Assembly: GCA_023248995.1 (NCBI GenBank)
Contig: JAHFDN010000025.1
Coordinates: forward strand, 1-33,262
Origin: Candidatus Rokuibacteriota bacterium
Lineage (GTDB): Bacteria; Methylomirabilota; Methylomirabilia; Rokubacteriales; CSP1-6
DNA length: 33,262 bases
Direction: 5' to 3'
The position numbers and the translations under genes were made by a program. The notes below the pieces were generated by a model. The model saw only the letters and a program-made list of their open reading frames with translations. It was not told where the DNA came from and did no database searches. Shown in pieces: positions 10,193 through 20,909 of this stretch; within the stretch, counting starts at the first letter, position 1, and each line of letters begins with the position of its first letter.

Positions 10193-10326
10193 CGTCCCCT
10201 GGCGGGCGTGCGCGTGCTGGACCTCACCTGGGTCCTCGGCGGGCCGTTCGCCGCCATGCAGCTCGGCGACCTGGGAGCCGAGGTCATCAAGATCGAGCCC
10301 CCCGACGGGGACTTCTCCGTCCTGGG
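10193..10326 (+). pseudogene. N-terminal remnant of a CaiB/BaiF-type CoA-transferase
   Basis: The + frame reads [20 protein letters not shown] then [19 protein letters not shown], which is exactly how CaiB/BaiF (formyl-CoA/carnitine-CoA) transferases begin. The match stops after about 42 residues; the frame then reads unrelated sequence ([10 protein letters not shown]) to a TAG at 10394. A full member has about 400 residues, so about 90 percent is missing. There is no clear start codon or ribosome-binding site; the frame only opens inside the end of the NYN gene. It appears to be a deletion scar left when a CoA-transferase gene was lost and the selenoprotein gene became the downstream neighbour. 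Confidence 0.75.
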
Positions 10327-10338
10327 GGGTGATGAACG

Positions 10339-10368
10339 TTGCCTAGGCCTGCACGCTCAGGCTATGCT
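10339..10368 (+). promoter_or_regulatory. Possible promoter of the DsbA-like selenoprotein gene
   Basis: TTGCCT (10339-10344), an 18 nt spacer and TATGCT (10363-10368) give 4/6 plus 4/6 matches to sigma-70 boxes, about 42 nt upstream of ATG 10411. The region lies just beyond the CoA-transferase remnant. It is a weak assignment based on consensus only. Confidence 0.3.
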
Positions 10369-10410
10369 GGCTCTGTCTTGCGGAAACGTGCACTAGCCGC
10401 TGGAGGGAAC

Positions 10411-11016
10411 ATGGCGATGGGGTGGCTCCGAGTCACAATGCTGGCGGTCGTCCTTTCGGCGCCGGCGTCCGCCGGGGCCCAGGATCCCGCCTTCCGGCTG
10501 ACGTTCGACCCGGCCATGGTCAAGGGGCCCGTCAGCGCCCCCGTGACCATCGTGGAGTTTTCCGACTACCAGTGACCCTACTGCCGACGGGTCCAGCAGG
10601 TGCTGGACCGAGTCCTCGGGGACTACCAGGGAAAGGTGCGCCTGGTGTTCAAGGATTTCCCGTTGCCCTTCCACGCCCTCGCCCGTCCCGCCCACGAGGC
10701 CGCCCGCTGCGCCGGGACCTTCAACCGGTACTGGCGCTATCACGACCGCCTGTTCGAGGCTCAGCCTGACTTCTCGCGCCCAGAGCTCCTTCGCTACGCG
10801 ACCGAGCTCGGCATCCCGGCCGATGCGTTCGCCCGGTGCCTCGACAGCGGCCAGTTCCGGAACGTGGTGGAGGCGGATGTCGTGCAGGGACGGCACATGG
10901 GCGTTTCGGCGACCCCGATGTTCTTCATCAATGGCGCCCGCCTCGCCGGCGCCCATCCGTACGAGGCCTTCAAGGAAGTCATCGACCAGGCCCTGCGCGA
11001 GGCCGGCAAGCGTTGA
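10411..11016 (+). CDS. DsbA-like thiol oxidoreductase, probable selenoprotein (Sec55 at TGA 10573-10575)
   Basis: Probable periplasmic thioredoxin-fold oxidoreductase of 201 residues if the in-frame TGA is read as selenocysteine. Signal peptide (GWLRVTMLAVVLSAPASAGAQ), then VKGPVSAPVTIVEFSDYQ-[TGA]-PYCRRVQQVLDRV. In DsbA/DsbG-like proteins this is SDYQ-Cys-PYC, so TGA stands exactly where the nucleophilic Cys of CPYC belongs, giving Sec55-Pro-Tyr-Cys58. The same frame continues without a gap through the family's helical insertion (FPLPFHALARPAHEAARCAG) to the cis-Pro loop (VSATPMFFINGARLAGAHPYEAF, Pro169) and the C-terminal helix. A perfect hairpin with an AGGU loop follows the TGA. GGAGGG at 10402-10407 supports ATG 10411 (ATG 10417 is also possible). 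Conventional calling gives a 55-codon stub plus a headless 138-aa protein. The alternative is a nonsense mutation or base error at a former TGC/TGT. Confidence 0.86.
10586..10614 (+). promoter_or_regulatory. SECIS-like hairpin directing UGA recoding in the DsbA-like gene
   Basis: GGTCCAGC (10590-10597) and GCTGGACC (10602-10609) form a perfect 8-bp stem closing the tetraloop AGGT (10598-10601). The stem extends through GAC/GTC (10586-10588 with 10612-10614) past a small internal loop. The loop begins 22 nt after the TGA, within the spacing accepted for bacterial SECIS elements, and has G at its second and third positions as in E. coli fdhF (AGGUCU). It lies wholly within codons RVQQVLDR, as bacterial SECIS elements do. 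Confidence 0.82.
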
Positions 11017-11019
11017 CGA

Positions 11020-11526
11020 TCAGGGCGAGGGGGGCTCGACCTCTCCGAGATCGAGCGCATCCCCCAGCGTCTTGAGCAGGAGGAAGAGGCTGGCCTTGAC
11101 TTCCTGGTCGTAGTCCACCGACTCCGGATCCCCGCCGTAGAAGACCGTCAAGAGGTACTGGACCAGGTTCGGATGCGGAAACTCTCCCCCACCCTGCACG
11201 CTGCGAAGAAAAATCCGCGGATCGGCGCCCTCCCACTGCTCGATCCACTCGGCGGTGGCCTCGTAGGCTTCCTGAATCCGATGCTGGGCCAACGCCGGGA
11301 ACGGCGTGCCCAGACTGGCCTCGAGGATCTTGAAGAGGAGGAACGTCAGGCCGAGGGCGGCCTTTTGCACGGGGGCGTCGAACTCCTTCGTCAGCACCTG
11401 GCAGAACGCCGCCACGTGGGGCTGCCGCTCGAGGAACGCGCGCGCCTCGTCCTCGGCCCGGCCGGGCGGATAGGCCGTGATTTCCCGCCACACCGCATCC
11501 ACCAGGGACTGGTCGATCGCTCTCAC
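11020..11526 (-). CDS. Conserved-looking helical protein of unknown function
   Basis: No family recognised. It encodes 168 residues, mainly amphipathic helices (DEARAFLERQPHVAAFCQVLTKE, KAALGLTFLLFKILEA, IQEAYEATAEWIEQW, LVQYLLTVFYGGDPES) with no signal peptide or membrane segment. GTG 11526 is chosen because GGAGG lies 4 nt upstream on this strand; the frame is open far beyond it but reads arginine/proline-rich antisense there. The end is 3 nt from the end of the selenoprotein gene (convergent) with no terminator between. An acidic tail (LGDALDLGEVEPPSP) closes it. Confidence 0.7.
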   Translation of the reverse strand: MRAIDQSLVDAVWREITAYPPGRAEDEARAFLERQPHVAAFCQVLTKEFDAPVQKAALGLTFLLFKILEASLGTPFPALAQHRIQEAYEATAEWIEQWEGADPRIFLRSVQGGGEFPHPNLVQYLLTVFYGGDPESVDYDQEVKASLFLLLKTLGDALDLGEVEPPSP

Positions 11527-11634
11527 AACGCCTCCGAAAGGGCGGAATCTGCTTGCGGGACATCGGAGTTCTGCAGTATCGTGAACGCTCGGCGGCAGGG
11601 ATTGTAGCACACCACCTTCGAGAGGGATACGTCG

Positions 11635-11940
11635 ATGAGCGATCCGTGCGGGCAACCGGTCGGCTGGGTGCTGTTGGCGTTCGGATTCCTCGGCCAGGCC
11701 TTCTTCTCCACGCGATTTCTCGTTCAGTGGATCGCGTCGGAGCGCAAGAAGGAGAGCGTGATCCCGATCTACTTCTGGTACTTCTCCGTAGGGGGCGGCC
11801 TCACCCTCCTGATTTACGCCATTCTCCGCGTGGACCCGGTCTTCATCGTCGGCCAGGCCGCCGGACTGTTCGTGTACTCCCGGAACCTCTACCTGATCTG
11901 GCGGAAGAAAGACCGGCTGGCCGCTTCTCACGGGGCCTGA
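11635..11940 (+). CDS. Lipid-A-disaccharide synthase N-terminal-type membrane protein (LAB_N)
   Basis: A 101-residue protein that is almost entirely the LAB_N domain, three membrane helices normally found beside or fused to lipid A or sugar-transfer enzymes. Segments: VGWVLLAFGFLGQAFFSTRFLVQWIASERKKESVIP, IYFWYFSVGGGLTLLIYAILRVDP and VFIVGQAAGLFVYSRNLYLIW. The FLVQWIASE and FVYSRNLYLIWR signatures are intact. No glycosyltransferase is adjacent, which is common for stand-alone copies. GAGAGGGA precedes ATG 11635. Its presence supports a lipopolysaccharide-bearing outer membrane. The 108 bp upstream is a divergent promoter region shared with the helical unknown. The next gene begins 18 nt downstream. 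Confidence 0.9.
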   Translation: MSDPCGQPVGWVLLAFGFLGQAFFSTRFLVQWIASERKKESVIPIYFWYFSVGGGLTLLIYAILRVDPVFIVGQAAGLFVYSRNLYLIWRKKDRLAASHGA

Positions 11941-11958
11941 TCGAACCGGAGAAGCATC

Positions 11959-12957
11959 GTGCCGCCATCCACGCCCGATCGCGTCCGCATCGTCGTCCCG
12001 GACGATTTCCCGTCGGTCTTCAAGGGAACCGACGCCCACAAACGGGCGGCCGCGCTCTGGGAAGTGACGGTTTTCAGCGAACGCGGGGCGGATCAGGAAG
12101 ACGAGTTGATCCGCCGCATCGGCCGAGCCCAGGTCGCCATCAACATCCGAGCCCACGCCAAGTTCGCTGAGCCCGTCTTCCGCGCCTGCCCGACTCTCAC
12201 GCTCATCTCGGTCTGGGGAACGGGCGTGGACAACATTGACCTCCACGCGGCCGGTCGGAACGGGGTGACGGTCTGCAACACGCCAGGCACCAACGCGAAC
12301 GCGGTGGCCGAGCACGCGCTGGCCCTCATGCTCGCGGTCGCGCGGCAGGTCCCGGCGGTTGACCGGGCGATGCGCGGAGGTCAGTGGCCCCGCGAGCTTC
12401 TGACCCAACTCACCGGAAAGACGCTCGGCGTGTTCGGACTCGGCACGATCGGAAGCCGGGTGGCCACAATGGGGAGGGCATTGGGCATGAATGTTCTCGC
12501 GTGGAGCGCTCGGGGCGATGCCAATCGAGCTCGCGCGCTAGGGGCGCAGCCGGCCTCGAAGGAGGACATTCTCCGCGAGGCGGACGTCGTGACGCTCCAC
12601 CTGATGCTCGAGACCGAGACGCGCGGCTTCCTCAGACGGAAAGAGTTCGCCCTGATGAAGCCCACCGCCATCCTGGTCAACACCGGGCGCGGGGCCCTGG
12701 TGGATCGCGAGGCACTGCTCGAGGTGCTGCGCGAGCGAAAGATCCTGGGAGCCGGTCTCGACGTCTTTCACGAGGAGCCGCTCAAACCCGACGATCCCAT
12801 CCTGGCGCTCCCCAACGTCGTGCTCTCGCCGCACATCGCGGGTCAGACGCCCGAGGTCATCCGCGACGGGCTGCTGCGCGCGGTGGAAAACGTCGAGAAC
12901 TTCCTCAAGGGCGCTCCCACCGACGTCGTCGTCTCCCCCTCACCCTCCCGAAGGTGA
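11959..12957 (+). CDS. D-2-hydroxyacid dehydrogenase (NAD-dependent)
   Basis: A 332-residue cytoplasmic oxidoreductase of the D-isomer-specific 2-hydroxyacid dehydrogenase family (phosphoglycerate, glyoxylate and related dehydrogenases). Visible: substrate-domain start VRIVVPDDFPSVF, GTGVDNIDLHAA, nucleotide loop GKTLGVFGLGTIGSRVA, and the catalytic set Arg in VNTGRGALVD, Glu in DVFHEEPL and His in LSPHIAGQTPEV. The start is GTG 11959 with GGAGAAG about 6 nt upstream. The last residues (SPSPSRR) run into a palindromic C/T-rich element, so the C-terminus may have been altered by its insertion. A second, diverged member lies at 27424. The substrate cannot be inferred. Confidence 0.92.
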   Translation: MPPSTPDRVRIVVPDDFPSVFKGTDAHKRAAALWEVTVFSERGADQEDELIRRIGRAQVAINIRAHAKFAEPVFRACPTLTLISVWGTGVDNIDLHAAGRNGVTVCNTPGTNANAVAEHALALMLAVARQVPAVDRAMRGGQWPRELLTQLTGKTLGVFGLGTIGSRVATMGRALGMNVLAWSARGDANRARALGAQPASKEDILREADVVTLHLMLETETRGFLRRKEFALMKPTAILVNTGRGALVDREALLEVLRERKILGAGLDVFHEEPLKPDDPILALPNVVLSPHIAGQTPEVIRDGLLRAVENVENFLKGAPTDVVVSPSPSRR

Positions 12958-12961
12958 TGCT

Positions 12962-13036
12962 CCCCTCACCTCTTCTCCTCTCCCCAGTGGGGAGAGGTAG
13001 GGTGAGGGGGGAGAGGATCAAGGTGAGGGGGTCCCC
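12962..13036. repeat. Palindromic C/T-rich intergenic element, copy 1
   Basis: Nested inverted repeats: CCTCTCCCC-AGT-GGGGAGAGG (12977-12997, perfect 9-bp stem) inside CCCCTCACC (12962-12970) and GGTGAGGGG (13001-13009), followed by AGGGGGTCCCCCT near 13025-13037. No T-run follows, so it is not a classic terminator. A related element is at 26637-26674. It is REP-like in form and sits between convergent genes, where it might also stop or stabilise transcripts. Confidence 0.75.
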
Positions 13037-13040
13037 CTTC

Positions 13041-13778
13041 TCAACTGAGCCCGCGCATCACGAGCCAGACCGCCAGCAGCGCCAGGAATCCCAGCACCAC
13101 CCGGTTGAAGGTGACCTGATCCACTCGGTCCTGCGTCTTGAGACCCAGCCAGAAGGCGCCGAGCCCGACCACCGTCGCGAGGACCGACAGGCCGAACACC
13201 CGCCACGTCAAGAGCCCGAAGTAGATCACCGAGGCAAGCTGGGCGACCTTGTAGACCAGGAACGAAAAGGCGATGGAGCGGATGAACTCGTCCTTGCCCA
13301 TGCCGAGGGCATAGAAGTAAATGGCCAGCGGGGTGCCGGGCACGTTGGTGACGCCCCCGAGCACTCCGCAGAGGAGACCCACCGGGGGCGAGAGGTAGCG
13401 CTCGAGGTCGGGCCGCACGCGGAGCGAGAAGCGGCCCACGTTCACAACCACGAAGAGGAGCACCACCGCGCCCAGGATGAGCAGAAGTCTCGGCGAGGAG
13501 ATCCAGACGAGAAGCTGCGTGCCGACGAACGTGCCGCCGATGCCGAACAGATACAGGATCCAGTGGCGCCTGAGGGTGCGGACGAGGCCGGGCTTGCGGA
13601 GGACCTGGATGCCGTCCATGAGGATATTGGGGAAGATCAGGACCACGATGGCTGTCCGGAGATCCACGAACAGGGCGAGGAGTGGAGTGGCAATGGTCGG
13701 GAAGCCGAAGCCGATGACGCCCTTCACGTAGGACGCCAGGAGCACCGCGAGGAGGCTCAGCCCCGCAGGGACTCCCAC
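13041..13778 (-). CDS. TauE/SafE-family sulfite/sulfonate exporter-type permease
   Basis: A 245-residue inner-membrane protein with about eight hydrophobic segments. TauE/SafE features: LLASYVKGVIGFGFPTIATPLLALFVDLRTAIVVLIFPNILMD in the first repeat and VGLLCGVLGGVTNVPGTPLAIYFYALGMGKDEFIRS in the second, the two G-x-G-x-P hairpins of the family. Such proteins move sulfite, sulfoacetate or other organic anions; the substrate here is unknown. GTG 13778 is chosen; it overlaps the end of the FAD/Fe-S dehydrogenase gene by 22 nt, so the two form an operon and the permease might carry that enzyme's acid substrate (inference). Confidence 0.88.
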   Translation of the reverse strand: MGVPAGLSLLAVLLASYVKGVIGFGFPTIATPLLALFVDLRTAIVVLIFPNILMDGIQVLRKPGLVRTLRRHWILYLFGIGGTFVGTQLLVWISSPRLLLILGAVVLLFVVVNVGRFSLRVRPDLERYLSPPVGLLCGVLGGVTNVPGTPLAIYFYALGMGKDEFIRSIAFSFLVYKVAQLASVIYFGLLTWRVFGLSVLATVVGLGAFWLGLKTQDRVDQVTFNRVVLGFLALLAVWLVMRGLS

Positions 13779-16618
13779 AGCACCTCGGCGGGATGCTTGG
13801 CGCGGCGGCCGGCCAGGTGCTCGATCTGCTGCCGGCAGGAGATTCCCGGGGCCACGATCTCCATGTCGGCGGCCGCGGCCTTGACGGCCGGGACGAGCCG
13901 ACGGTTTCCGAGGGCGACGGAGAGATCGTAGTGCTCCCGCTCGAAGCCGAACGAGCCGGCCATTCCGCAGCACCCGGAGTCCACCTCCTGCACGTCGAAG
14001 CCGGCCCACGTGAGGGCCGACACCGTGGGTGCCATCCCGACGAGCGCCTTCTGGTGGCAGTGGCCGTGGAGCAGCGCCTTCCGGCCGTTCCCGGCGAACG
14101 GTAGCGAGAGCCCGCTCTTTCGCTCGCGCTCGAGGAACTCCTCCAGGAGGAGGCTCTGCTCCGCCACCCGCCTCGCCGCGTCGCTCCGGAGCAGATCCAC
14201 GTACTCGTCCCGGAGGGTCAAGAGACACGACGGCTCGAGGCCGACGATGGCCACGCCCCGCCGCGCGTGAGGCAGGAGCCGCTCCACGTTCCACGCCGCG
14301 TGGGCCTTGGCCTCCGCGAGCATGCCCTTCGAGATGAGCGGTCTCCCGCAGCACTTCTTGTCCACGAGCGTCACGCGATAGCCTGCCCGTCCGAGCAGCC
14401 GCACCGCGGCGATCCCGACGTGGGGCGCGTTGTACGTGACGAAGGTGTCGTGGAACAGGACCACCTCGCCCCGGGGCGCGGGCGCCGACTGCTCATGACG
14501 GGCGAACCAGTCGGCGAACGTCCGACGCGCGAAGCAGGGAAGCGGCCGGCGCCGATCGATCCCGACGAGGCGCTCGAGGGCCCAGCGGTGAAGCCCGGAT
14601 GCGGCGACCCAGTTGGAGACCGGCGCGAGGCGAGAGGCGAGCCGGCTGAGCGACTCGATCCGGCCGAACAGCCGGTTACGGAGCGGTAGGCCGTTGGCCC
14701 GGTGGTAGTGGGCCAGGAACTCGTACTTGAGCTTCGCCATGTCCACGTTCGAGGGGCACTCGGCCTTGCACGCCTTGCACTCCAGGCAGAGATCCATGAC
14801 CTCATAGAGCCGTCGCCCCGTGAAGTCCGAGGCCGGCACCTGCCCCGACAGGACGGCGCGGAACGCGTTCGCGCGCCCCCGCGTCGAGTGCTCCTCATCG
14901 CGGGTGACCATGTACGACGGGCACATCGTCCCTTCCAGCTTCTTCCGGCAGACGCCGACGCCGTTGCACATCTCCACGGCGGCGGCAAACCCGCCCTGCG
15001 CCGAAAAATCGAGCGTCGTGGCCGGCTCCCAGGTCCTGTACTCCGGCCCGTAGCGGAGGTGCTCCGTGATGCCGGGGCTGTCCACGAGGTTGCCCGGGTT
15101 CATCAGATTCTTCGGATCGAAGGCGTGCTTGAATTCGCTGAACGCCCGAAACAGCCGTGGTCCGAAGACGCGCTCCAAAAACGGGCTCCTCGCCCGCCCG
15201 TCGCCGTGCTCGCTCGAGATTGCGCCGCCGAACTCCAGGACGAGGTCCACAATCTCATCCGCGATGGCCCGCACCTGCTCGAGTCCCCGGCGCGTTTTCA
15301 GGTTGATCAGCGGGCGGATGTGGATGCACCCGACCGAGCAGTGGCCGTAATAGGCCCCCTCGGCGCCGTGCTCGGCCATGATCTCGCGGAAGCGCGGCAC
15401 GAAGGTAGGCAAGTGCTTCGGATCCACCGCGGTGTCCTCGATGAAGGCGATGGGCTTGGAGTCGCCCTTCATACCCAGGAGGAGCCCCAGCCCCGCCTTG
15501 CGCAGCTTCCAGATGGACTGCTGCTCCGCCGGATCGTAGGCCGCGTGGGAGGCGTAACCGAAACGGCCCCGGGATCGCCGCGCTTCGAGCGCCTCGACCT
15601 TGCTCTTCACCTCGGCGTCGCTGTCACCGGCGTACTCGACGATCAGGATGGCGACCGGATCCCCCTGGACGAACCCCATCCGCTTGGACTGCTCGATGTT
15701 TCCCCTCGCCAGATCGAGGATCATCTTGTCCGTGAGCTCCACCGCGTACGGCCCCGTCTCCAGAATCGCCTGGGAGGACTCGAGCGCCTCGAGCATGTCG
15801 GCAAAGTGGATCACGTCGAGCGCGGTCCTCTTCGGCCGGCCCACCAGCCGCATCTTGGCCTCGACCACGGTGAGCAGGGTGCCCTCGGAGCCCACCACGA
15901 GGCGCGCCATGTTGAGCGGGCGGTCCTTGACCAGCTCGTCCAGGTTGTAGCCGCACACGCGGCGCCAGTACTTCGGGTAGCGCGCGCGGATCTCCCCGCG
16001 GTATTGGTCCCGCAGCCGCGCCACTTCGCGGTAGATCTGCCCCTCGAGCCCGGGGACGTTCATCTTGGCCCGGAAGGCCTCCGGGGGCACTTCCCCGAAC
16101 ACCGCTCGGCTGCCGTCGGCGAGGAGCGCGGTCACCTCGATGACGTGCTCCACCGTCAGGCCGTAGACGATGGAGTGGGCGCCGCCCGAGTTGTTGCCGA
16201 TCATGCCGCCCAGCGTCGCCCGGCTGGACGTGGAGGTATCAGGGCCGAAGAGCAGTCCCAGCGGGTGGATATGCGCGTTCAGCTCGTCCTGGATCACCCC
16301 GGGCTCCACGCGGCACCAGCCCTCCTCCGGGTTGACCTCGAGCACGCGGCTCATGCGAGGGGAGAAGTCGAGCACGACCGCGCGGTTGACGGTCTGCCCG
16401 GTCAGCGACGTGCCGCCGCCGCGCGGGAGGATCGGCACGTTCTGCCGGTTCGCGACCTCGATCGTCGCCTGCACGTCCCCCGCATGCCGCGGGATCACGA
16501 CGCCGATGGGCTCCATCTGGTACATCGACGCGTCGGTCGCGTAGAGCAGCCGCGAGTACCGGTCGAAGCGGACTTCGCCCTCGACGACTCGACGAAGGTC
16601 GTGCTCGAGCCCGGTCAT
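13757..16618 (-). CDS. FAD-binding and Fe-S-binding dehydrogenase (D-lactate/glycolate/2-hydroxyglutarate type)
   Basis: A 953-residue protein that fuses a GlcD-like flavin domain to a GlpC-like iron-sulfur domain, oxidising a 2-hydroxyacid and passing electrons toward the quinone pool. FAD domain: PRHAGDVQATIEVANRQN, PRGGGTSLTGQTVN, GGMIGNNSGGAHS and VVGSEGTLLTVVEAKMRL; C-terminal cap with GHCSVGCIHIRP and SSEHGDGRARSPFLE. Two 4Fe-4S motifs follow (CNGVGVCRKKLEGTMCPSY and CLECKACKAECPSNVDMAKLK, about 545-620), then two cysteine-rich CCG motifs (DKKCCGRPLISKGM and DSGCCGMAGSFGFE). All key cysteines are intact. ATG 16618 starts 7 nt after a TATAAT on the same strand, suggesting a leaderless message. 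The exact substrate is not assignable. Confidence 0.93.
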   Translation of the reverse strand: MTGLEHDLRRVVEGEVRFDRYSRLLYATDASMYQMEPIGVVIPRHAGDVQATIEVANRQNVPILPRGGGTSLTGQTVNRAVVLDFSPRMSRVLEVNPEEGWCRVEPGVIQDELNAHIHPLGLLFGPDTSTSSRATLGGMIGNNSGGAHSIVYGLTVEHVIEVTALLADGSRAVFGEVPPEAFRAKMNVPGLEGQIYREVARLRDQYRGEIRARYPKYWRRVCGYNLDELVKDRPLNMARLVVGSEGTLLTVVEAKMRLVGRPKRTALDVIHFADMLEALESSQAILETGPYAVELTDKMILDLARGNIEQSKRMGFVQGDPVAILIVEYAGDSDAEVKSKVEALEARRSRGRFGYASHAAYDPAEQQSIWKLRKAGLGLLLGMKGDSKPIAFIEDTAVDPKHLPTFVPRFREIMAEHGAEGAYYGHCSVGCIHIRPLINLKTRRGLEQVRAIADEIVDLVLEFGGAISSEHGDGRARSPFLERVFGPRLFRAFSEFKHAFDPKNLMNPGNLVDSPGITEHLRYGPEYRTWEPATTLDFSAQGGFAAAVEMCNGVGVCRKKLEGTMCPSYMVTRDEEHSTRGRANAFRAVLSGQVPASDFTGRRLYEVMDLCLECKACKAECPSNVDMAKLKYEFLAHYHRANGLPLRNRLFGRIESLSRLASRLAPVSNWVAASGLHRWALERLVGIDRRRPLPCFARRTFADWFARHEQSAPAPRGEVVLFHDTFVTYNAPHVGIAAVRLLGRAGYRVTLVDKKCCGRPLISKGMLAEAKAHAAWNVERLLPHARRGVAIVGLEPSCLLTLRDEYVDLLRSDAARRVAEQSLLLEEFLERERKSGLSLPFAGNGRKALLHGHCHQKALVGMAPTVSALTWAGFDVQEVDSGCCGMAGSFGFEREHYDLSVALGNRRLVPAVKAAAADMEIVAPGISCRQQIEHLAGRRAKHPAEVLWESLRG

Positions 16619-16625
16619 GCCCCAC

Positions 16626-16658
16626 ATTATACCCGCGGTCCCCGATCGGCGGTATACT
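16626..16658. promoter_or_regulatory. Divergent -10 elements for two probably leaderless genes
   Basis: On the minus strand TATAAT (16631 to 16626) is followed by 7 nt and then ATG 16618. On the plus strand TATACT (16653-16658) is followed by 6 nt and then GTG 16665. In both directions the expected transcription start falls at or next to the start codon and no Shine-Dalgarno sequence is present. No convincing -35 boxes are seen. Confidence 0.5.
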
Positions 16659-16664
16659 GGCGGG

Positions 16665-17174
16665 GTGCGACGCATCTTCGGTCTGGGGCTGGCTCTGGCG
16701 TTAGCGTGGAGTTTCCCGGCCGCGGGGTGGGCTCACCCCTCGGCGCCGGCCTTCACGCTCCGGCTCCTCGACAGCCGTAAGACGCTCGACTCGCGCTCCT
16801 ACCTCGGAAGGAAGGTCCTGGTCGTCCGCTTCCAGGCTTCGTGGTGCAATCTCTGCGTGCGGGAAGCGCCCTCCTTCGAGCGCGCGTACCGCAAGTACAG
16901 GTCGCGAGGGGTGGAGTTCGTCGGGATCCAGGTGCTGGACACCGAGGCCGACGTGCGAAGGTTTCTCAAGGCCCACGGCGCGACTTATCCGGCGGGCCTC
17001 GATCCGAATCTGACGATCGCCAATCGATTCGGCTTCCAGCGCACGCCCTACACGATCGTCATCTCGCGAAAGGGGGAGATGATGGCGAGGATCCACGACT
17101 CCGCGGACGAGACCCGGCTCGCCAAGGTGATCGAGCCACTCCTCGCCCGCTCGGCCAAGCCCCGCCAGGGCTAA
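16665..17174 (+). CDS. TlpA-like periplasmic thioredoxin
   Basis: A 169-residue thiol-disulfide oxidoreductase with an N-terminal signal peptide (RRIFGLGLALALAWSFPAAGWAHPS) and a TlpA/ResA-type thioredoxin fold: FTLRLLDSRKTLDSRSYLGRKVLVVRFQASWCNLCVREAPSF. The active site is WCNLC (an ordinary Cys pair), and the cis-Pro is in GFQRTPYTIVISRKGEMM. TlpA/ResA proteins reduce cytochrome c or copper-site cysteines during maturation. GTG 16665 is chosen rather than an upstream in-frame start because the signal peptide begins there and a TATACT box lies just before it. It is divergent from the FAD/Fe-S dehydrogenase and convergent with the ROK gene. Confidence 0.88.
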   Translation: MRRIFGLGLALALAWSFPAAGWAHPSAPAFTLRLLDSRKTLDSRSYLGRKVLVVRFQASWCNLCVREAPSFERAYRKYRSRGVEFVGIQVLDTEADVRRFLKAHGATYPAGLDPNLTIANRFGFQRTPYTIVISRKGEMMARIHDSADETRLAKVIEPLLARSAKPRQG

Positions 17175-17190
17175 CCCGTGGCGGCGGCGT

Positions 17191-18249
17191 TCATCCGCCG
17201 CCTGCCGGGGCTCGCTCGGTCTCGTAGAGGTAGAGAGCGGCGCCCCCCAGCACGGCGGCCCGCTTGTCCAGGGACAGCAAGCTGATCCGCGTCGTGACCA
17301 GGGCGCGCCTGAAGGCGTACTCGGCGACCCAGCCGAGGACCCTGGACTCCAGCGGGATCAGCGACTCGGCCACCCCGCCCGTCACCAGTACGACCTCCGG
17401 ATTCAGGGCGTTGACGATGACTGCCAGCCCCGCCGCCAGCGCCTGGCAGATCTCCTCCACCAGGACCCGGGCTCCGGCGTGGCCGGCGCGCGCCGCCTGG
17501 AACACCGCCGGGGCGCCGACGTCCGGCCCGAGGTCGGGGAGGTCCCGGCGCGCGCGCTCGGCGATCTCCCGCCCGGACACGTAACTGTCGAGCCACCCCC
17601 GGCCGAAGGCGGACGTCTTCGGCGCATCGAAGTTGATGGGAACGCAACCAATCTCCCCGCCGTAGCCGCCTTCGCCGCGGACGAGGCGGCCGTCCAGGAT
17701 GATCCCGCCGCCGACGCCGGTCCCGAGCGCCAGGAGGACGAGAGAGCGGGTTCCCCGGCCGGCGCCGAAGAGCCACTGGCCCAGGGCGAGGAGGTTCACG
17801 TCGTTGTCCACTCGCGCGCGGAGGCCGTAGCGGGCGGCGAGACGATCGGCGAGCGCACAGCCCGCCAGCTCGGGCACGTTCTTGATGTCCTCTCCCACGA
17901 TCCCGCGCGCCGCGTCCACGACGCCGGGCACGCCGGCGCCGATGGCGAGGAGCGTGATTCCCTGCGCCTTGGCCATCGCCACGAGCTCATCGGCCAGGTC
18001 GAAGATCGTCCCGAGCGCCCCGCCACGCTCCGCCGCGTGGGTAGGCGCCTGGGAGTGCGCAAGCGTCTCGCCCTCAGGCGTGACGAGTCCGGCCGCCGTG
18101 ACGCTTCCGCCGACGTCGAGGCATAGAATCGCCTCACGACCCGAGCCACGTAAAGTGGCTCGGGTGCCCGCGGAGGTGGCTCGCCTCCGCTCGCGACGAC
18201 CCGCGCCAGTAGCGCGGGTGCCCGCAGGGGTCGCTCGCTTCGCTCGCAT
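17191..18249 (-). CDS. ROK-family protein (sugar kinase-like) with repeat-derived N-terminus
   Basis: A 352-residue protein. The ROK core starts at about residue 41: ILCLDVGGSVTAAGLV (phosphate loop), VPGVVDAARG, VDNDVNLLALGQWLFG (catalytic Asp region), VLLALGTGVGGGIILDG and VLVTGGVAESL. The usual zinc site (His plus CxCGxxGC after GGEIG) is absent: the sequence reads YGGEIGCVPINFDAPKTSAFGRGWL, so kinase activity is less certain. Residues 2-40 are basic, Arg/Ala/Thr/Gly-rich, and contain a 20-residue repeat (RATPAGTRATGAG, RATSAGTRATLRG) encoded by two palindromic DNA elements. No ATG, GTG or TTG occurs between them and the core, so ATG 18249 must be used. That ATG is 1 nt after the deacetylase stop, giving translational coupling. 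Confidence 0.86.
   Translation of the reverse strand: MRAKRATPAGTRATGAGRRERRRATSAGTRATLRGSGREAILCLDVGGSVTAAGLVTPEGETLAHSQAPTHAAERGGALGTIFDLADELVAMAKAQGITLLAIGAGVPGVVDAARGIVGEDIKNVPELAGCALADRLAARYGLRARVDNDVNLLALGQWLFGAGRGTRSLVLLALGTGVGGGIILDGRLVRGEGGYGGEIGCVPINFDAPKTSAFGRGWLDSYVSGREIAERARRDLPDLGPDVGAPAVFQAARAGHAGARVLVEEICQALAAGLAVIVNALNPEVVLVTGGVAESLIPLESRVLGWVAEYAFRRALVTTRISLLSLDKRAAVLGGAALYLYETERAPAGGG
18139..18246 (-). repeat. Tandem pair of palindromic elements inside the ROK coding region
   Basis: Unit A: ACCCGAGCCAC (18139-18149), GTAAA loop, GTGGCTCGGGT (18155-18165), then CGGAGG/CCTCCG (18171-18176 with 18184-18189). Unit B, 60 nt further: ACCCGCGC (18199-18206), CAGTA loop, GCGCGGGT (18212-18219), then GCCCGC and TCGCTCGCTTCGCTCGC. 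Both units share the order hairpin, GCCCGC, GGNGG-type arm, GCTCG. The 60-nt period keeps the reading frame and gives a 20-aa protein repeat. Confidence 0.8.
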
Positions 18250-18250
18250 G

Positions 18251-19003
18251 TCACTCAAGATGGCCGAAGTGGCCGAGCCGGATGCCGCGCGCGTCCACGC
18301 TCTCGCGCACCCGGGGATCGGTGAGCCCCTCGAGCTCCACCTCGCGCTGCGGGCCGTAGCGGCTCCCCGCGAGGTCCGGGTCGAAGTAGCCCGGGTGGGT
18401 CATGAACTCGGACACGCCGTCCGGCAGCGAGGCCAGATGCGCCAGGAGACGCTCGGACGACCAGTAGGCCTCCGGGCCGGACTCGCCCATGAAGTGATCC
18501 GGCGTCCTGAGCTTGAGCCGCCGCGCGGCGGCCCGGACCAGGGCGTCCTGGCTCCTCACCGGCACCCTGATGGCTTGCGCGAACTCCAGGATCAGCGCCA
18601 GGATCGGCTCGTGGCGCCCCACGTGGTGGTGACTGTCGAGATGGGTGGGAAACCGTCCCATGAGCTTCCTGAACGCGTCGATCTGGGCGCCCAGCTCGAT
18701 ACGCGCCTCTTCGGCCTTGGCGCGCGCCGCCGCCTGCCGCGCGTCCCGCACGAACTTCCCCTCGCCGTCCACGAGCGAGGGCACGCGCCGGGGATCGGAG
18801 ACTGGAGCGCCGAGGGTCAGGTTCAGGTGGAGGCCCACGCCCAGGGCCGACGCCTTCAACGCCCCCACGAGCGCGAGATCCATCGGGCGGTTCACGAGCA
18901 TCGTGGTGCTGCTGACGATGCCCTTGCCATGCGCCTCCAGGATCCCCCGGCTCACACCGGCCGTCAGGCCGAAATCATCGGCGTTCACGATCAGACGCTT
19001 CAC
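18251..19003 (-). CDS. YdjC/ChbG/HpnK-family carbohydrate deacetylase
   Basis: A 250-residue polysaccharide-deacetylase-like enzyme that removes N-acetyl groups from amino-sugar substrates (chitooligosaccharide or hopanoid glycoside in named members). Motifs: RLIVNADDFGLTAGVSRGI (catalytic Asp pair), VGLHLNLTLGAPVS (metal His), THLDSHHHVGRHEPIL (metal His cluster), EFMTHPGYFDPDL near the end. All are intact. GTG 19003 starts inside the stop of the upstream methyltransferase (GTGA overlap), and its own TGA is 1 nt before the ROK start. A deacetylase beside a ROK protein suggests amino-sugar handling (inference). Confidence 0.93.
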   Translation of the reverse strand: MKRLIVNADDFGLTAGVSRGILEAHGKGIVSSTTMLVNRPMDLALVGALKASALGVGLHLNLTLGAPVSDPRRVPSLVDGEGKFVRDARQAAARAKAEEARIELGAQIDAFRKLMGRFPTHLDSHHHVGRHEPILALILEFAQAIRVPVRSQDALVRAAARRLKLRTPDHFMGESGPEAYWSSERLLAHLASLPDGVSEFMTHPGYFDPDLAGSRYGPQREVELEGLTDPRVRESVDARGIRLGHFGHLE

Positions 19004-19701
19004 GCGGGTTTCGTCCCCTGCACCACGAAGCGTTCGACCGTCTTGGGGATCCCCGTTCGGGGGAGCGTTCCCTCGGTGTCCAGGCTCCGGATGTGATCCA
19101 GCCGCTCGTAGCCGATCCGCGGAAAGGCCTGGACCTCCCGTCCGATGACCCGGGGGGTGAGCCCCACCCCCTCGAGCTTCGAGGTCGCGACCTTCTGGCC
19201 GAGGAAGGCAAAGATCGTGAAGACGAGCCGGCCCCCGGGAGCCAAGTGACGCGGGGCGCCCTGGATGGCGCGATCCAGGATCTCCCAGCCGTCCACACCT
19301 CCGTTGTCCGCGACCGCGACGGGATCGTCCCGGTCGCGCCCCGGCGGGGTCGGCATCTGCGGCGGGTTGGTGCAGATCAGGTCGAAATTCAGCCCGGCGA
19401 CCGGATCATAGCAGTCCCCCAGCCTCACCTCGAGCCGATCCGCGACGCCGTTGAGCAGGGCGTTTTCGCGCGCGCAGGCGACCGCCTCGGGGACCACGTC
19501 CGTCGCCACGACGCGGCACCCGGCCCTTGCCGCGAGGATCGCCGCGAGACCGGCTCCGCACCCCAGCTCCAGCACGCGCTCCCCCGGCTCGACCCGGAGG
19601 TGCCGGCAAAAAAGCAAGGAGCCCGCTTTGGGGACCTGCACGCCGTCGGCGATCCTGACGAGCGCCCCCTGATAGACGTAGAGCAGGACCCCGTCGTCCA
19701 T
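19000..19701 (-). CDS. SAM-dependent methyltransferase (PrmA/HemK-like, small-domain type)
   Basis: A 233-residue class I methyltransferase. The SAM site reads RVLELGCGAGLAAILAARAGCRVVATDVVPEAVACARENALLNG; the acceptor motif is FDLICTNPPQMP, the NPP[YF]-type motif of N-methyltransferases acting on amides or bases. The N-terminus (GALVRIADGVQVPKAGSLLFCRHL) is a substrate-entry cap. The target (protein glutamine, tRNA or rRNA base) cannot be named. GGAGG lies 5 nt before ATG 19701, within a small self-complementary GGAGGCTCC. It overlaps the deacetylase gene by 4 nt. Confidence 0.88.
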   Translation of the reverse strand: MDDGVLLYVYQGALVRIADGVQVPKAGSLLFCRHLRVEPGERVLELGCGAGLAAILAARAGCRVVATDVVPEAVACARENALLNGVADRLEVRLGDCYDPVAGLNFDLICTNPPQMPTPPGRDRDDPVAVADNGGVDGWEILDRAIQGAPRHLAPGGRLVFTIFAFLGQKVATSKLEGVGLTPRVIGREVQAFPRIGYERLDHIRSLDTEGTLPRTGIPKTVERFVVQGTKPA

Positions 19702-19717
19702 AGGAGCCTCCGCTGCG

Positions 19718-20029
19718 CTAGCGCCCCTGCACCTTCCTGAAGTAGAGGCGGAGCGCTTCCTTCAGCTGCGCCCGGGCACCCGGGGAGCTCTTGGCGTCCT
19801 CCAGCTCCTCCAGATCAAGCTGAAGGGGCACCCCTTCTTTCTTGACGCCGTCCAGCTCGGCCGTGAGCCCGCAGCGCTCGTCGGACTCGGTGAAGACGAC
19901 CTTGGCCTTCTTGAAGCTGCCATCGTCCTGGGCGATCTGCTGGATCGTCTCCGTCAGAAGCTGCTTGATCGCCTCGGCCTCGGCTGTCGGGACGGTCGAG
20001 AACGCGGCGATGAGATCGATCTCGGCCAT
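19718..20029 (-). CDS. Small acidic protein of unknown function
   Basis: A 103-residue soluble protein with no recognised family. It begins AEIDLIAAFSTVPTAEAEAIKQLLTETIQQIAQDD, then a strand-like FKKAKVVFTESDERCGLTAELDG and an amphipathic helix ARAQLKEALRLYFRKVQ. It follows the selenoprotein gene by 6 nt; its ribosome-binding site (GAGGAAAGG) lies within the last codons of that gene, so expression of the two should be coupled. A functional link with the CMD-like selenoprotein is therefore plausible but unproven. Confidence 0.72.
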   Translation of the reverse strand: MAEIDLIAAFSTVPTAEAEAIKQLLTETIQQIAQDDGSFKKAKVVFTESDERCGLTAELDGVKKEGVPLQLDLEELEDAKSSPGARAQLKEALRLYFRKVQGR

Positions 20030-20035
20030 GGCGGT

Positions 20036-20287
20036 CTACCTTTCCTCATCCCACACCTTGAGGATGTCGGCGTGGGTCTTGGCGGCGTTGGCCCGGATGG
20101 CGAAGCTGATGGCCTCGCGGATCTCGTCCTCGGTCGCGCCGGCGGCCCTGGCACCTGCCAGGTCTCGCTTCGCTCAGTGGGTGTTCCCCGCCGCAAGGTT
20201 GGCGGCGAGATAGCAGAGGGATGCGGTCTTGGGGTCCAGCACGCCCTTCTTGTAGCGCCAGCTCGCGATCACCTTTTCCTCAACCAT
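20036..20287 (-). CDS. CMD/AhpD-like small redox protein, probable selenoprotein (Sec38 at TGA 20176-20174)
   Basis: An 83-residue single-domain carboxymuconolactone-decarboxylase/AhpD-like protein if the in-frame TGA is read as selenocysteine. It reads VLDPKTASLCYLAANLAAGNTH-[TGA]-AKRDLAGARAAGATEDEIREA, then ISFAIRANAAKTHADILKVW. Against the family pattern (LAA.LAA.C..C..YH...A...GAT.EEI.EA) this aligns without gaps and places the TGA at the second Cys of CxxC; the first Cys is Asn35 and the usual His position is Asp42. A hairpin with an AGGU loop follows. GGAGGAGA lies 5-7 nt before ATG 20287. The gene overlaps its upstream neighbour by 8 nt and precedes the next start by 6 nt, so it sits inside an operon. 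Standard gene finding would call a 37-aa stub or nothing. A peroxidase or thiol-redox role is inferred from family. Confidence 0.86.
20147..20162 (-). promoter_or_regulatory. SECIS-like hairpin directing UGA recoding in the CMD-like gene
   Basis: Read on the minus strand, CCTGGC (20162-20157), loop AGGT (20156-20153) and GCCAGG (20152-20147) form a perfect 6-bp stem and tetraloop, with a further G-C pair beyond an A-G mismatch. The loop begins at nucleotide 18 after the TGA. The hexamer GCAGGT occupies nucleotides 16-21 after the TGA, the same place as GCAGGU in E. coli fdhF. The loop is identical to that of the DsbA-like gene. Confidence 0.82.
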
Positions 20288-20909
20288 CGTGGCTCTCCTC
20301 CCTGGGGAACTTGAACGGATGAAGCCGACAGGTCCAGACGCCTCCCTGGTTCTCGATGGCGAGGCGAACGTGAACGAAGCCGTCGCGATGCGTGGTCCAG
20401 AGAAAGACCGAGGCATCCTCGGCCTCCCCGCACCCGTCGCAGATCCAGGCCGTACCGAACCGCTCCGGCTCTCGCTGGAGACCCGCGTGTGCCTCGGGGG
20501 TCACGAAGAGCGGCCCGGAGTCCGAGGGGAGGAAGGCGTTCAGGTCGCTCAGGTAGGGCAGCACCTCTGCCGGGGCGGTCTCGCCCCAGGCGTCGAGGAC
20601 GGGCAGCAGGGGGGCCCGGCGGCACGTGGCCACGAACTCCAGCTCGTCGCTGAGCCGGCCTTCCGCGACATCCAGGTCGCCGAGGAAGGCCCGGAGATCG
20701 GCCAACGTCACCTCGGCGCGGTAGAGACGGCCGGCGAACGCGCTCCGCTCGAGGGGCGCCAGCAGGAAGTACGGAGAAGCCGGCACCGGCTCCAGCACCG
20801 GTCCAGCGACCTGGTAGAGACGATCACCGCCCCGCGCCTCCCCCACGCCGTCGTACCAGATGAGGGTCGCCGTGAGACCGGGCTGAATCCAGGCAGGAGA
20901 CTCCGCCAT
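20280..20909 (-). CDS. Protein of unknown function with a C-terminal CxxC pair
   Basis: A 209-residue soluble protein with no recognised family and no signal peptide. Most of it is a mixed alpha/beta sequence (ATLIWYDGVGEARGGDRLYQVAGPVLEPV, SPYFLLAPLERSAFAGRLYRAEVTLADLRAFLGDLD). Near the C-terminus is FGTAWICDGCGEAEDASVFLWTTH, a CxxC that could bind metal or be redox active. The DNA encoding its final residues supplies the ribosome-binding site for the CMD-like selenoprotein, and the two genes overlap by 8 nt. GGAG lies 4 nt before ATG 20909. Confidence 0.75.
   Translation of the reverse strand: MAESPAWIQPGLTATLIWYDGVGEARGGDRLYQVAGPVLEPVPASPYFLLAPLERSAFAGRLYRAEVTLADLRAFLGDLDVAEGRLSDELEFVATCRRAPLLPVLDAWGETAPAEVLPYLSDLNAFLPSDSGPLFVTPEAHAGLQREPERFGTAWICDGCGEAEDASVFLWTTHRDGFVHVRLAIENQGGVWTCRLHPFKFPREESHDG

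Follow-up and report, generated by a model that had tools for sequence, protein, structure and literature searches.

Two genes in the 33,262-nucleotide stretch of DNA analysed here (the window, contig C31 of a 2.34 Mb assembly that comprises 57 contigs and is 97% complete), one coding for a DsbA-like protein and the other for a small CMD/AhpD-like protein (CMD1), almost certainly encode selenoproteins, as judged by comparison of these sequences with those of relatives. SelB carrying Sec-tRNA-Sec is predicted to bind the hairpin located just past the in-frame UGA of each gene and to deliver selenocysteine at that codon in place of termination. One product would be an envelope-type DsbA-like oxidoreductase with U-P-Y-C at its active site, the other a small protein of the AhpD/CMD fold that carries one catalytic Sec. 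The coordinates and motifs of both pairs of UGA and hairpin, as given in a preliminary description of this DNA, were found to be correct throughout, including the perfect stems, the AGGU loops and their respective distances from the UGA.

Table 1. Positions of the putative selenoprotein genes, their in-frame UGA codons and hairpins, and the genes of the Sec machinery (coordinates without a contig prefix are those of the window)
Feature	Position	Strand	Remarks
dsbA-like gene, putative selenoprotein	10411..11016	+	reading frame; 201 aa; N terminus resembling a signal peptide; active site UxxC
In-frame UGA of dsbA-like gene, predicted Sec codon	10573..10575	+	aligns with TGC/TGT of Cys-type homologs
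Putative bSECIS hairpin of dsbA-like gene	10590..10609	+	8-bp stem 10590-10597/10602-10609; AGGU loop 10598-10601; compensatory changes in orthologs
CMD1, CMD/AhpD-like putative selenoprotein gene	20036..20287	-	83 aa; NxxU motif; Pfam PF02627 44.2 bits, cut-off 23
In-frame UGA of CMD1, predicted Sec codon	20174..20176	-	TGA retained in 41/41 orthologs
Putative bSECIS hairpin of CMD1	20147..20162	-	6-bp stem 20162-20157/20152-20147; AGGU loop 20156-20153
CMD2	C2:4394-4606		TGA here and in relatives found; CxxU
CMD3 (L096)	G000:C36, TGA at 16287	-	CFDU; longer AGGU-capped stem; TGA in 38/38 family matches
Peroxiredoxin (L087, G000:C22)	C22:15564-15938, TGA at 15815	-	DWTPG[U]TKQM; UGA at peroxidatic Cys position
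ArsC/glutaredoxin-like gene	C51:14024-14368		TGA in 25/27 matches
selC (tRNA-Sec)	C51:47447-47540		70.9 bits
selA	C51:44752-45846		510 bits
selB	C51:42802-44682		380 bits
selD	C22:271492-272433		own in-frame TGA

Sec machinery and UGA-containing genes

The genome, a Rokubacteria MAG, contains selC, selA, selB and selD, the set of genes by which an organism is recognised as Sec-decoding, and the first three of these are clustered within 5 kb of one another. SelA was found in 84 of the 95 genomes of the class, and those relatives that carry CMD1 are named Candidatus Rokubacteria or Rokuibacteriota. A point against the selenoprotein reading is that one genome with a Cys-type DsbA (G061), in which SelA was not found, presumably as a consequence of an assembly gap, still has the UGA in both CMD2 and CMD3. 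As a separate observation, contig C32 of the window genome begins within a second SelB C-terminal region (locus L086, G000:C32, positions 1-900; 299 residues with 81% identity to the main SelB), which comes from a contaminating relative or else from another copy of selB.

Seven UGA-containing genes were found in all, coding for DsbA, CMD1, CMD2, CMD3, SelD, a peroxiredoxin and an ArsC/glutaredoxin-like protein, thereby bearing out the earlier expectation that the genome holds further selenoprotein genes. The figure is a lower bound obtained from whole-genome searches plus a sequence sample of approximately 18% of the genome, and since three of the seven lie within the ~380 kb sampled outside the window, the true number is probably larger. 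None of the 14 molybdopterin-oxidoreductase matches in the genome contains a stop, and hence no UGA-containing member of that family was found.

In-frame UGAs in several genes would also be expected had UGA come to specify some other amino acid throughout the genome (compare codes 4 and 25), with the hairpins merely incidental. Such a reassignment is scarcely credible, however, as UGA is still the main stop codon (170 of the 331 genes predicted in the sample end on it), the UGA sites are catalytic Cys positions accompanied by hairpins, and a tRNA-Sec gene is present.

The DsbA-like protein, which reads ...TIVEFSDYQ[U]PYCRRVQQVL... around its UGA, scored above the Pfam cut-off with both PF13462 (112 bits) and PF01323 (79.6 bits), and thus possesses a DSBA/thioredoxin domain in which U-P-Y-C constitutes a UxxC motif. 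Its family and signal-like N terminus suggest that it would be expected to act as a thiol-disulfide oxidoreductase of the cell envelope. Just upstream on the same strand (10201-10395), a frame that by eye resembles the N terminus of a CaiB-type CoA transferase soon ends, and looks like a truncated remnant.

CMD1 reads ...LAAGNTH[U]AKRDLAGARAAG..., the residues directly after U being AKRDL, and its score with PF02627 (Table 1) establishes the presence of a CMD domain. In an AlphaFold model of the protein (mean pLDDT 86), CMD/AhpD structures ranked first amongst structural matches, with weak E-values of 0.03 and above. The Sec would occupy the second Cys position of the motif, and no CxxU motif was present, the window protein having NTHU and 39 of the 41 orthologs having Asn at the position concerned. 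Cys25, 13 residues upstream of the Sec, is conserved in 40/40 sequences and, by way of speculation, could serve as a resolving residue. Neither the 103-aa protein coded directly downstream of CMD1 (19718-20029, minus strand) nor the gene upstream of it (20280-20909) gave a Pfam or NCBIfam match.

Hairpins downstream of the UGA codons

The dsbA-like gene has a perfect 8-bp stem, GGUCCAGC-AGGU-GCUGGACC, with the loop 22 nt past the UGA, and CMD1 has a perfect 6-bp stem, CCUGGC-AGGU-GCCAGG, with the loop 17 nt past the UGA; in both genes the stretch after the UGA folds with an energy of about -19 to -23 kcal/mol. The consensus model of the bacterial SECIS (bSECIS) specifies a loop of 3-9 nt with G among its first two positions, an upper stem of 4-16 bp, a distance of 16-37 nt from the UGA and a minimum free energy of no more than -7.5 kcal/mol (PMC13188914, Fig. 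2A), and neither hairpin deviates from it in any respect. A scan of the window against Rfam at gathering thresholds returned no match, a result attributed to the small amount of information held by short bSECIS hairpins. A genome-wide SECIS scan with covariance models was set aside because ~6 bp plus a UGA is too uninformative for a genome of 2.3 Mb.

The frequency of such hairpins by chance was estimated from a 415-kb sample, consisting of the window and 20 further stretches (~18% of the genome), on which a codon model was trained and from which 331 genes were predicted. A strict rule was applied that demanded at least 6 bp, a tetraloop with a G at position 1 or 2 and a distance of 15-24 nt. 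In this sample the rule was satisfied after 0/169 ordinary TGA stops, 0/42 TAA stops and 3/119 TAG stops (3/161 for TAA and TAG together). The preliminary description would have been undermined had such hairpins been equally common after ordinary stops, which they were not. Hairpins of this kind followed 0.95% of sense codons, and those with an AGGU loop followed 0.014%. Of 98 TGAs flanked on either side by coding signal, three had a strict-rule hairpin, both window sites being among them, and most of the 98 are simply neighbouring genes in the same frame. Other in-frame TGAs of this sort, L101-17159, L091-13271 and L102-15977 among them, were rejected after inspection, when they were judged to be ordinary stops ahead of an adjoining gene in the same frame. 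In DNA with 68% GC the stem alone is too common to be decisive, and it is the conservation data that decide.

Conservation of UGA and stem among relatives

The TGA is retained in 44 of the 48 Rokubacteria DsbA orthologs included in the tree, and the other four have Cys codons. Taken together with the retention of the CMD1 codon (Table 1) and the conserved stems, this result makes it very probable, as originally proposed, that both UGAs are Sec codons served by a bacterial SECIS.

It could nonetheless be argued that the UGAs are ordinary stops, or errors of sequencing or assembly, each downstream frame being a gene in its own right or what is left of a pseudogene: more predicted genes in the sample end on UGA than on any other stop, and both proteins would then simply look truncated. 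That reading is highly implausible given that 41-44 different MAGs preserve the UGA together with the parts of the frame on either side of it, that homologs carry Cys at the UGA position, and that the Pfam domains extend across it.

Selection on the stem is indicated by compensatory changes in DsbA and CMD3 together with synonymous constraint in CMD1. Pairs 1-5 of the DsbA stem are formed in 43/43 distinct sequences, with one compensatory change at pair 5 (C-G to U-A). At pair 6, genera g23 and g8 have exchanged U-A for C-G, accompanied by replacement of Val by Ala and of Asp by Gly, and at pair 7 genus g2 has exchanged G-C for C-G, accompanied by replacement of Val by Leu and of Asp by Glu; as mismatches occur at pairs 6-8 in some lineages, the requirement is strict only in the upper stem. 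Genera g23 and g8 have also exchanged C-G for G-C at pair 5 of the CMD3 stem. The CMD1 stem codons (GAC, CTG, GCC and AGG) exhibited zero synonymous variation across 41 orthologs while most neighbouring codons vary, and the Arg codon in the stem is AGG in 41/41, the remaining conserved Arg positions using CGN only. The invariance of this stem means that the evidence from CMD1 is one of synonymous-site constraint rather than covariation.

Corresponding inspection of the Cys-type DsbA orthologs indicated that the stem is broken in all four present in the tree. One of these (L080, from G070) retains the letters of the AGGU loop with two pairs broken, and looks like a decaying SECIS following a switch from Sec to Cys; L141, L142 and L151 (from G061, G057 and G019 respectively), together with the more distant Cys-type homologs examined, have no such stem. 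The absence of an intact stem from Cys-type orthologs ties the hairpin to the UGA and not to the protein sequence.

These same data bear on hairpin-stimulated read-through by a near-cognate tRNA, which would give rise to truncated as well as full-length protein and would not involve Sec. Stem-loops past a UGA can stimulate read-through, and hairpins follow both UGAs; the DsbA orthologs, however, exchange UGA with Cys codons only, the Sec machinery is complete, and the hairpin is lost in Cys-type orthologs, so that this explanation, if marginally less remote than either reassignment or ordinary termination, is very improbable. Insertion of Sec stands as the favoured account of both window genes.

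Loop sequences and comparison with known systems

The proposal of a SelB specific for AGGU, on the model of fdhF, proved too narrow. A local scan recovered the CMD3 hairpin on C36 as a third AGGU hairpin beside the two in the window, and AGGU predominates in CMD1 (AGGU 31, GGGC 8, AGGC 1, GGGG 1) and in CMD3 (AGGU 29, GGGU 1). The DsbA loops (GGUC 25, AGGU 12, GGGC 4, GGAC 3), on the other hand, divide largely by clade, with the 12 AGGU loops in one and the 32 GGUC, GGGC or GGAC loops in the other. The CMD2 loops are GGCU or GGCC (GGCC in the window genome), selD of the window genome has GGGU by inspection, and the cap in the ArsC-like family takes the form A-(GUU/GGA/GGC)-U, with GUU in the window genome. 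No clean tetraloop hairpin was found downstream of the peroxiredoxin UGA, and the SECIS of that gene may consequently have another shape. Since G039 and G091 each combine AGGU in CMD1 with GGUC in DsbA, one SelB must serve both loops, and a requirement for the word AGGU is ruled out by the GGUC, GGGC, GGAC, GGCC, GGGU and GUU loops of the same clade.

In nearly all loops position 2 is G (position 1 for the triloop of the ArsC-like gene) and the first and fourth letters are complementary, which matches in outline a pattern already published, N1 G[G/U] N N2, where N1 pairs with N2 (PMC13188914). SelB would seem to recognise a small loop whose second letter is G and whose first and fourth letters are complementary (AGGU, GGUC, GGGC, GGAC, GGCC, GGGU), a rule that we infer, since shared ancestry and the demands of coding lessen the value of statistics based on counts. 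It is tentatively suggested, with somewhat less than even confidence, that the SelB element of Rokubacteria is a generalised tetraloop N1-G-N-N2, with N1 and N2 complementary (A-U, G-C or G-U), that interchanges across genes and lineages, and also that CMD1 represents a Rokubacteria-specific selenoprotein subfamily that has lost the partner Cys of CxxU and in which the conserved Cys25 may take the resolving role.

The comparative evidence is unusually clean: several gene families with between 30 and 44 orthologs apiece, and Cys-type orthologs whose hairpins are broken, provide a dataset from which the reading of loops by SelB might be deduced. It also corrects the idea of a shared AGGU loop as the signal, that loop being merely one of several accepted. 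Redox proteins of this uncultured soil and groundwater lineage would be cut or missed by standard gene calls, and truncated annotation of both window proteins, as previously envisaged, is plausible because both fall below the NCBI curated cut-offs for related (seleno)protein families.

Both Sec insertion via bSECIS and the two protein classes are already known (PMC1088965, PMC13188914). The DsbA-like protein shares a thioredoxin/DsbA fold, a UxxC motif and Sec at the first Cys position with form 1 of the DsbA-like selenoproteins described from the Sargasso Sea (PMC1088965) and with the Rcas_1661 seleno-lipoprotein family (NCBIfam NF041057), and its score with the latter of 121.4 bits, against a curated cut-off of 190, makes it a relative and not a formal member. 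CMD1 likewise shares the CMD fold, and Sec in place of the second Cys of CxxC, with the CMD-domain or AhpD-like selenoproteins (PMC1088965) and with the GSU3128 seleno-protein family (NF041047), with which it scored 46.2 bits against a curated cut-off of 110. Those proteins have CxxU, as do the paralogs CMD2 and CMD3, whereas CMD1 has NxxU.

With the SECIS of E. coli fdhF the window hairpins have in common their location after the UGA and a loop containing GG(U). The fdhF loop is the longer AGGUCU and its stem has a bulged U, whereas the window hairpins have an unbulged stem and a tetraloop closed by C-G. At the level of lineage, a comparison can be drawn with a Methylomirabilota MAG that we take to belong to the same GTDB phylum as the window genome. 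A total of 63 selenoproteins have been predicted for that MAG (Deng et al. 2026, cited in PMC13188914), which, as far as the citing paper relays it, shows the lineage to be selenoprotein-rich.
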